Shown: piece by piece, positions 9,982 to 13,010 of the stretch | How positions within the stretch are numbered: position 1 is the first letter of the stretch | Layout: each line of letters starts with the position of its first letter | DNA from: an uncultured Bacteroidota bacterium | GTDB lineage: Bacteria; Bacteroidota; Bacteroidia; Chitinophagales; Chitinophagaceae | DNA length: 42,701 nt | NCBI GenBank assembly: GCA_937902875.1 | Contig: CALFNL010000265.1 | Span: forward strand, 1 to 42,701 | Reading direction: 5' to 3' | Translations under genes and position numbers: made by a program | The notes under the pieces: generated by a model | What the model was told of the DNA's origin: nothing | What the model saw: only the letters and a program-made list of their open reading frames with translations | Databases searched by the model: none

Positions 9982-10547
9982 AAATTATAACCGATTGTAA
10001 AAAAGACTTTGCTGCCATAAGGTGATCGTGGATCCTGTACCAGATCGTACTGCAACATGGCTATCATAGCACCCCTTCCTGCCGGCAATACGCCACCGGC
10101 GCCAGCCAGAACAGAGGGCACAAATTTACCGGGGAGCTTTAGATTGGTGCCATCGGCTAATTTTCGTTTGCCCCAATTATAATTGAGTTCCGGCTGCATC
10201 TGCAACAATAGGAATTGTATGGGGTAAACCCGTGCAAAAACATTGACGCCTGTATTCCCAAAATTATCCCTGTAGGCTTCGGTATTGCTTGGGAAATATC
10301 TTGTTTTGAAACTGCTATAAATAAAATTTACTCCGGCTCCCGCAGCAAAATATTTGTTAAAATGGTAACCCACCTGAGGGGAAACATTTACCAGGGTGTA
10401 GTCGCCGAAACTCAGTCCAAAATTTCCTCCAAAAAAAAGTTTTGAAGGATCAAATCCCTTTTTTTCCACAGGCTGTTCTTCCTGCGCCTGCAAATGACCA
10501 AAGCAAACCGCGCCAAGCAACAGCATCATTGCGAAACATTTCTTCAT
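9978..10547 (-). CDS. Outer-membrane beta-barrel-like protein, function unknown
   Basis: Signal peptide (MKKCFAMMLLLGAVCFGHLQAQ), alternating beta pattern, terminal aromatic (FTIGYNF). Confidence 0.7.
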   Translation of the reverse strand: MKKCFAMMLLLGAVCFGHLQAQEEQPVEKKGFDPSKLFFGGNFGLSFGDYTLVNVSPQVGYHFNKYFAAGAGVNFIYSSFKTRYFPSNTEAYRDNFGNTGVNVFARVYPIQFLLLQMQPELNYNWGKRKLADGTNLKLPGKFVPSVLAGAGGVLPAGRGAMIAMLQYDLVQDPRSPYGSKVFFTIGYNF

Positions 10548-11974
10548 GTGTCAAATATTTTACCGGCATTCAGAATATTATTGGGATCGAATACTTTCTT
10601 GATCCCCCTCATTATTTCCAATTGATTGTTGTTAAAAACTATATTCATGTATTCTTTTTGAACCAGCCCGATACCATGTTCTCCTGAAATAGTTCCTCCG
10701 AGACTATAAACCAGTTCAAATAAGGCCCTCAGGCATTTCACCATCGCAGGATCCTCCAGGCTATTCAACGTTCCTTCCTTCCTGATTCGTATGTGCAGAT
10801 TGCCATCTCCCGCATGCCCATAGCAAACCGCATGAAAATCATATTCACGTCCCAGTTTCTTCACCCCCCTGATTAGTGTGGGTAATTCTGCCCTGGGCAC
10901 AACTGTGTCTTCTTCTATCGTATAGCCCTTCAATTTTACGGCTTCGGCAACCCTCCTCCTCAGTTTCCACAATTCTGCCTTCTGCCTTGCATCATCCGCA
11001 AAATAAACTTCTCCGCAATCGTATGCTGTTAAGAGTTCGCTAATTGATTCCATTTCACTCATGAGTGTGTCAGGATGATTTCCATCCACCTCTATGATCA
11101 GATGCGCTTCCGTATCATCGGCAATCGGTACGGGCGAACTGCCCAGCATCTCACTCACTATCTTCAATGCATCTATTTCCACCAGTTCCAGAGCACTGGG
11201 CGTAAAGCCGGCCCTGAAAATGGCGCTCACGGCCTCACCGGCCTTTTCCAGGGAACGGAATGGAACAAGCATCAGGAGATCATATTTGGGCAAGGGAATA
11301 AGTTTCAACACAATCCTGGTGACTATTCCTAATGTGCCTTCACTCCCAACCACCAGTTGGGTGAGATTGTATCCGGTTGAATTTTTCAAAACGTTCGCGC
11401 CAGTCCAAATGATTTCTCCACTGGGCAGCACCATCTCCAGGTTGATAACATAATCCCTGACTACTCCATATTTTACTGCCTTGGGTCCACCGCTGTTTTC
11501 CGCAATATTTCCGCCAATAAAACAGGAACCCCGGCTGCTCGGATCGGGAGGATAGAATAATCCTTTGGCTTTTACGGCATCCTGCAGCACTTCAGTGATT
11601 ACACCCGGTTCGGTAATAGCCTGCAGATTGCGCTCGTCAATATTTATGATGGAATTGAGCCGCTCTGTGGAAATAACTACCCCGCCCAACTGTGGAAGGG
11701 CTCCTCCGCTCAGTCCCGTACCCGCGCCCCGGGGGGTAACGGGAATCAAACGTCTGTTGCATATCTTCAATATCTCACTAATCTCATTTGCATTCCCCGG
11801 CCTCAATACCAGGTCTGGCAAATAATGCAGCATTTCCGTTTCATCCCGCGAATAGTTTTCCAGCGTTTCACCATCGGCAATTACATGTTCATCTCCTACT
11901 ATCTTCCTGAATTGGCCGATATCTTCCTGGCTGATCTTTTCCTTTACTGGGTTCATGTTTATAAATTTCAACAA
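10544..11974 (-). CDS. FAD-linked oxidase, GlcD/D-lactate dehydrogenase-like
   Basis: PRGAGTGLSGGALP FAD-binding loop, SSRGSCFIGGNIAENSGGPKAVKYG, VCYGHAGDGNLHIRI, GTISGEHGIG. Confidence 0.92.
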   Translation of the reverse strand: MLKFINMNPVKEKISQEDIGQFRKIVGDEHVIADGETLENYSRDETEMLHYLPDLVLRPGNANEISEILKICNRRLIPVTPRGAGTGLSGGALPQLGGVVISTERLNSIINIDERNLQAITEPGVITEVLQDAVKAKGLFYPPDPSSRGSCFIGGNIAENSGGPKAVKYGVVRDYVINLEMVLPSGEIIWTGANVLKNSTGYNLTQLVVGSEGTLGIVTRIVLKLIPLPKYDLLMLVPFRSLEKAGEAVSAIFRAGFTPSALELVEIDALKIVSEMLGSSPVPIADDTEAHLIIEVDGNHPDTLMSEMESISELLTAYDCGEVYFADDARQKAELWKLRRRVAEAVKLKGYTIEEDTVVPRAELPTLIRGVKKLGREYDFHAVCYGHAGDGNLHIRIRKEGTLNSLEDPAMVKCLRALFELVYSLGGTISGEHGIGLVQKEYMNIVFNNNQLEIMRGIKKVFDPNNILNAGKIFDT

Positions 11975-12172
11975 TGCATGTAAAAATCGGAAATGCTGTC
12001 CATTTCAGGAAATCCTGATATTTCTTCACTTTTTACCAGTTGAATCCCCGGCCCCCCTGGAATGGAAAGCTCCGGATCTCAAACCAGATAGAGCCCTTGA
12101 TTGGCCAACCAGCAAGACCAGCCTTGATTTCATTTTTTTTTCTTAAAAAAACTAAATGCTGATGCAACATTT

Positions 12173-12210
12173 TACGAATATCATCGTACTTTTATACGAA
12201 GGAAATCGTA
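12173..12210. promoter_or_regulatory. Candidate tandem operator: TACGA-N6-TCGTA twice, four half-sites at 11-bp spacing
   Basis: TACGA 12173-12177, TCGTA 12184-12188, TACGA 12195-12199, TCGTA 12206-12210, 30-67 bp upstream of the preferred start at 12240. Confidence 0.6.
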
Positions 12211-12239
12211 TTAAATCATTCAAAGTAAAAATAGCCAGT

Positions 12240-13010
12240 ATGACACAAAAAAAATCAATGCAAAGAGCCATAGTATCAGGAGCACTGGCGGCCTGCCTGG
12301 GCATAAGCTCCATGGCCTGGGCTTTTCATGAAAAAGTGCCATATCATTCGGGGAATCCGATTCCGGGAACACGCGTTCCCATTTCCGTTAGTGATACCAT
12401 TCCGTCGGAAAAAAAGATTCAACAAAAAGTAGAATCGGAGGTGATTGACAGATCCATGGAAGAAATTAACCGGGCCCTGAAAGACCTGAACATTGAATTG
12501 AAAAAAGTGGATTTGACCGATTTGCGCCTGGAAATGGGAAAAGCGATGAAGGAGATTGACATGAAAGATATCCGTGTTGAAGTAGAGACTGCCTTGAAAA
12601 ATGTGGAATGGGATAAGATACAGGATGAAGTTAATAGAGCCATGAAGGATGTGAAAGTAAATGTTGACCTTGACATCGTGCAAAAAAGCCTGGAGGCCAG
12701 CAGGGAAGCATTGAAAGAAAATTGGGAAAAGGCCTGGAAAGATGAAATGAAAAAAGCCGGAGTAGAAATGCACCGCTTAAAGAATTTCCTTTTGGGCCTT
12801 GAAAAAGACGGATTGATAAAGAAGGGAGAGCCCTATACAATTGAGATCAAAAATGGAGAACTATTCATCAACGGCAAAGAACAACCCAAAAATATAACTG
12901 ACAAATACCGGAATTCAGAAGAGTACAAGAGCTATTTCAAAAAAGACGGAAATTTCAAAATTAAATCAAACGGGAAAGATGATCAGGAAGATGATGATGA
13001 TCTGATTTAG
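12240..13010 (+). CDS. Predicted exported helical-repeat protein with acidic C-terminus, function unknown
   Basis: Internal ATG at 12240 gives a good signal peptide (MTQKKSMQRAIVSGALAACLGISSMAWA); recurring A(L/M)K(D/E/N) helices; C-terminus GKDDQEDDDDLI. The ORF track starts at 12156. Confidence 0.75.
   Translation: MTQKKSMQRAIVSGALAACLGISSMAWAFHEKVPYHSGNPIPGTRVPISVSDTIPSEKKIQQKVESEVIDRSMEEINRALKDLNIELKKVDLTDLRLEMGKAMKEIDMKDIRVEVETALKNVEWDKIQDEVNRAMKDVKVNVDLDIVQKSLEASREALKENWEKAWKDEMKKAGVEMHRLKNFLLGLEKDGLIKKGEPYTIEIKNGELFINGKEQPKNITDKYRNSEEYKSYFKKDGNFKIKSNGKDDQEDDDDLI

Follow-up and report, generated by a model that had tools for sequence, protein, structure and literature searches.

A probable tandem BlaI operator laid over a Bacteroidota core promoter, and a target gene whose product may work with BlaR1

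The two inverted repeats at positions 12,173–12,210 of the window (the whole stretch of 42,701 nucleotides from an uncultured Chitinophagaceae bacterium that was analyzed) most probably form a tandem BlaI operator that overlies the core promoter of the 12,240–13,010 gene. A shared BlaI/BlaR1 circuit would derepress both this gene and a blaI-blaR1 operon, and the gene product would work with BlaR1; we place the probability of this reading at roughly 0.87. DNA binding, repression and proteolytic derepression are what we infer, as is the role of the target protein, of which we are far less confident. In the model proposed here, one BlaI dimer would occupy each 16 bp dyad, with dyad 1 lying between the -33 and -7 promoter elements and dyad 2 over the transcription start, and RNA polymerase would be shut out by two dimers with the -7 box between them. 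An equivalent array on contig C400 of the same genome would let the same BlaI repress the blaI-blaR1 operon that encodes it, and BlaR1, a membrane metalloprotease of the M56 family, would sense a signal and inactivate BlaI, thereby derepressing both units together. The target would then be a sensor or feedback module that is encoded apart from BlaR1 but co-induced and working with it.

Re-checking the letters bears out what an earlier, sequence-only reading of this DNA had described: the half-sites TACGA, TCGTA, TACGA and TCGTA start at 12,173, 12,184, 12,195 and 12,206 and build two exact dyads on the forward strand, TACGAATATCATCGTA (12,173–12,188) and TACGAAGGAAATCGTA (12,195–12,210), the second with arms that extend to 6 bp (ATACGA/TCGTAT). 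The same reading held that the 11 bp register places every half-site on about the same face of the DNA. The register is indeed exact in the window, where the dyads lie 22 bp apart, but relatives show dyad-to-dyad distances of 22–25 bp, so that a strict 11 bp register is no general rule and a single DNA face shared by all four half-sites was dropped as a requirement. Across the sequences compared, each dyad is rigid and the register between the two dyads variable; what constrains the spacer is a -7 promoter element.

This predicted element, TACTTTTA (12,187–12,194, + strand), reaches from the end of dyad 1 into the spacer, and has one mismatch to TAnnTTTG, the consensus of the Bacteroidota -7 box, which spans T-12 to G-5 (PMC6847099; PMC9723704). 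Among the 67 arrays assigned to a gene, TAnnTTTG with at most one mismatch is found on the gene strand in 63 and on the opposite strand in none, at a position made up of the spacer between the dyads plus the last TA of dyad 1. A -7 box held in the spacer on the gene strand points to a BlaI operator superimposed on a promoter. Farther upstream, TTG stands 17–23 bp from the -7 box in 47/67 arrays versus 4/67 when the searched interval is shifted; in the window array TTG is absent at the -33 distance, and GCAAC stands there, as in several homologues. With T-12 at 12,187, transcription is predicted to start near 12,199 (+ strand), giving a leader of ~41 nt, and dyad 1 would cover approximately -26 to -11 and dyad 2 approximately -4 to +12, over the predicted start. 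The average leader in Flavobacterium johnsoniae is 33 nt (PMC6847099). The divergent neighbor, a FAD-linked oxidase (10,544–11,974, - strand; FAD_binding_4 and FAD-oxidase_C in Pfam), was rejected as a target of this promoter because the -7 box points the other way. The oxidase adjoins the target in several genera (the window, L026, L037, L051 and L084), and a functional link is not obvious.

The target gene (12,240–13,010, + strand) encodes 256 aa, counted from the first in-frame ATG, which follows the array by 29 bp. Lack of conservation upstream of orthologues had been set beforehand as a result that would count against an operator; the dyads are present at 29 of 30 target loci, the window included, and the 30th is cut by a contig end. 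In these 29 loci the distance from the dyads to the first in-frame ATG is 12–70 bp, mostly 24–32 bp, and in 27 of them (again with the window) no in-frame ATG occurs upstream of or within the array. The start at 12,156 in the open reading frame track is thus an open-frame artefact, and on this comparative evidence translation starts at 12,240, as the earlier reading had preferred. The in-frame extension (12,156–12,239, + strand), which is not conserved and would render operator and promoter intragenic, was rejected as coding.

Where the sequence-only reading considered the regulator not identifiable from the window and named a BlaI/MecI-like repressor as inference only, a specific candidate is now at hand. 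On C400, 4 bp separate a second tandem pair (C400:2181–2220) from the start codon downstream of it, that of a Penicillinase_R (BlaI) protein of 127 aa (PF03965, 94.9 bits against a cut-off of 22.6), which matches the solved structures of MecI and BlaI. It is followed by a Peptidase_M56 BlaR1 gene (PF05569, 119.8 bits), and the two make up a blaI-blaR1 operon. The genome (3.8 Mb in 461 contigs) was scanned for TACGA-N6-TCGTA as had been suggested, with the reversed pattern as control. Single dyads were not enriched (6 exact matches versus 8 for the control), so a lone dyad proves nothing, but tandem pairs were (2 versus 0). Four of the six exact dyads make up the window array and the C400 pair. 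The two solitary ones, at position 1,171 of the window and at C322:33782, fall within an ABC-transporter ATPase open reading frame and within mnmG, respectively; as both are intragenic, they were taken as chance matches rather than operators. Counting one-mismatch dyads as well, the window holds 4 matches against 0.47 expected, and those sampled in the genome are mostly intra-ORF. In a 154 kb sample of the genome, the number of mismatches per pair is either 0 (the window and C400 pairs) or at least 4.

The association between array and regulator extends well beyond this genome. A pattern search of bare DNA found the tandem pair in 121 of 299 Chitinophagaceae genomes and the control in 0 of 299, and, of 70 such arrays inspected, 36 stand immediately before a blaI homologue and 31 immediately before a relative of the window gene. 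One of the 3 unassigned arrays, L084, is followed by a truncated target-like gene, with the FAD oxidase known from the window as its divergent neighbor. BlaI/BlaR1 pairs are encoded in 118 of 150 sampled Chitinophagaceae genomes. In a phylum-wide sample the tandem array occurs in 35 of 396 genomes and the control in none, and 15 of the 20 arrays outside Chitinophagaceae are upstream of blaI. Viewed from the side of the regulator, an exact dyad stands no more than 130 bp upstream of each of the closest blaI genes (30/30), and the same holds for the 80 closest blaI loci in named genomes (80/80; Terrimonas, Niastella, Flavihumibacter, Lacibacter, Puia and others), where 0.02 would be expected from the remainder of the same DNA. 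Promoters of blaI with only one exact dyad are common in Chitinophagaceae, and the second dyad there may be weaker or absent. The regulator gene and the motif therefore co-occur, both on C400 and among the family arrays, and the earlier suggestion of a BlaI/MecI-like repressor has gained support from the blaI-linked arrays, the C400 pair and the dyads before blaI.

The features of BlaI operators encountered here are an inverted repeat upstream of blaI, a Penicillinase_R winged-helix regulator, overlap with the promoter and the presence of two dyads, and judged by them the array should behave as a BlaI operator and in most respects is one. The staphylococcal bla and mec operators (the R1 and Z dyads) similarly place paired dyads over a promoter, and there, too, small dimeric Penicillinase_R repressors control their own blaR1-blaI operon. 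The half-sites differ, being TACA/TGTA in staphylococci (PMC5460165) and TACGA/TCGTA with a 6 bp center here. A second difference is that the bla/mec resistance regulons control a beta-lactamase or PBP2a gene, whereas no such gene was found under this operator, and at the upstream end of the class A beta-lactamase gene on C322 no dyad is present even with 1 mismatch allowed. Like the BlaR1/MecR1 sensor-proteases, the M56 protease here is encoded beside blaI, but a penicillin-binding sensor domain gave no Pfam match in the C400 BlaR1, which is cut at its 3' end, or in the complete BlaR1 proteins of L164 and L165; what is found instead is a target-like domain at the C-terminus, or none when that domain is encoded separately. 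As the scanned BlaR1 proteins have no penicillin-binding match and the beta-lactamase lies outside the operator, sensing of beta-lactams is not to be assumed.

The nearest parallel is Clostridium thermocellum, in which BlaI_0696 and BlaI_1845 have regulons of three and one operons (PMC8457756), are autoregulated, and control a target of unknown function beside blaI-blaR1, with two inverted-repeat pairs for four protomers as a strict requirement. The C. thermocellum half-sites are GTCTAT or GACTAT, compared with TACGA/TCGTA here, and the staphylococcal TACA/TGTA core is not in those sites either, the half-site core being species-specific. Unlike here, the passages on these two regulators describe no BlaR1-like target domain. 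A search of the open-access literature found no published Bacteroidota BlaI operator or targets, and papers outside it are possible; as far as this literature shows, the Bacteroidota operator sequence, its fit to the promoter of the phylum and the BlaR1-like target are new. With the operator sequence and its fit into this unusual promoter fixed, and the main regulon member besides blaI-blaR1 named, there is now a reliable motif with which to annotate BlaI regulons over hundreds of genomes, and the signal perceived by BlaR1 proteins without a penicillin sensor becomes directly testable.

The target protein had nothing above cut-off in Pfam and NCBIfam, its structure model had no match in the PDB at E ≤ 0.001, and a protein query against named organisms returned no match. 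It begins with a predicted N-terminal signal sequence or membrane anchor (MTQKKSMQRAIVSGALAACLGISSMAWA; 12,240–12,323, + strand), modeled as a helix. A coiled coil makes up the middle, and the C-terminal domain (12,765–13,001, + strand) is in common with BlaR1 C-termini (alignment A3, 86 bits); residues 181–230 are modeled with high confidence (block pLDDT 95–98). It is probably an exported, periplasmic coiled-coil protein.

The argument that it works with BlaR1 comes from the way the C-terminal domain is distributed. In six relatives examined, all without a separate target gene, the domain is at the C-terminus of BlaR1, and in ten genomes with a separate target gene the BlaR1 beside the array-type blaI is without it (the C400 BlaR1 is truncated by the contig end, and absence of the domain was taken from a same-genus relative with a 91% identical BlaI). 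Across 200 genomes the domain is separate in 73, fused to a protein of BlaR1 length in 18, and present in both forms in 0 (one-sided Fisher p = 0.0002, uncorrected for shared ancestry). Two parts that some species join in one protein, and that a common operator governs where they are separate, most likely act together. The target gene and the BlaR1 sensor appear to be switched together, and the target is probably a detached, co-induced BlaR1 module. It is tempting to go further and to suggest, tentatively, a split BlaR1 system in which the extracytoplasmic C-terminal module is separate, exported and encoded at a distant locus in most Chitinophagaceae genomes that carry the system, and in which its induction only after BlaR1 has removed BlaI would create a feedback loop. 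If so, the BlaI/BlaR1 circuit would not be sensing penicillin through a penicillin-binding domain.

A serious alternative, to which we give somewhat less than even odds, accepts the BlaI operator but takes the target for an ordinary effector of envelope stress, one that has a domain in common with BlaR1 without being its partner. A related domain also occurs at the C-termini of H+-pyrophosphatases, suggesting that it can be a general add-on, but the mutual exclusivity of the separate and BlaR1-fused forms argues for partnership, as do what are apparently both layouts side by side on contig C153 of the window's genome, where the matches are weak. At L015:9507–10343, a third BlaR1, of 507 aa and without the C-terminal domain, adjoins a separate exported protein of 278 aa that weakly matches the target C-terminal domain, and in the second BlaR1, of ~730 aa, a weak match lies at the C-terminus of BlaR1 itself. 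The H+-pyrophosphatases with a tail domain related to the target C-terminus (L172:5591–7699 and L007:3234–5621) are found near blaI-blaR1 in several genomes, and some of the frames that yield these tail matches hold a stop; the tail of the H+-pyrophosphatase in the window's own genome looks similar, as judged by eye only. The contig ends of L007 (1–40 and 9123–9178) translate to odd strings (SRTPTTRLN and STLFPYTTLFRS) and resemble sequencing-adapter remnants rather than genome.

It is also worth considering which regulator would occupy the array. Two other blaI paralogues on C153 each have a one-mismatch dyad ~11 bp before the start, so specificities may overlap and either paralogue could in principle be the actual repressor of the window gene. 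We consider this improbable, as each C153 gene has a lone, imperfect dyad, the exact tandem array of the window recurs in this genome only at the C400 blaI, and the arrays of relatives sit at orthologues of that gene. Still less probable is that a different dimeric regulator, of the MarR, TetR or a similar family, acts here: the half-sites are unlike the staphylococcal ones, but the dyad precedes every one of the 80 blaI loci, arrays found from DNA alone precede blaI across the phylum, and no other regulator gene recurs at arrays. That the half-sites are a chance pattern or coding sequence read from 12,156, as unenriched single dyads and the open frame might suggest, can be set aside, being already refuted by the family scan, the gene assignments and the target loci, in nearly all of which the array is upstream of the start, and at odds with a same-genus relative in which the specified bases of both dyads are kept (20/20) while the N centers differ.

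With BlaI as the preferred regulator, the regulon need not always consist of two units, as a few arrays precede other genes, including those for an S41-like protein and TonB-receptor-like proteins, and it would be larger in some species. Outside Chitinophagaceae, the tandem arrays of L287 and L289 stand before TonB-receptor-like outer-membrane proteins and not before blaI. At L175:1450–2578 (G000:C185:5449–6577), two one-mismatch dyads 43 bp apart flank a TACATTTG box directly upstream of the gene for an exported PDZ-domain protein, a possible further target of the BlaI family.
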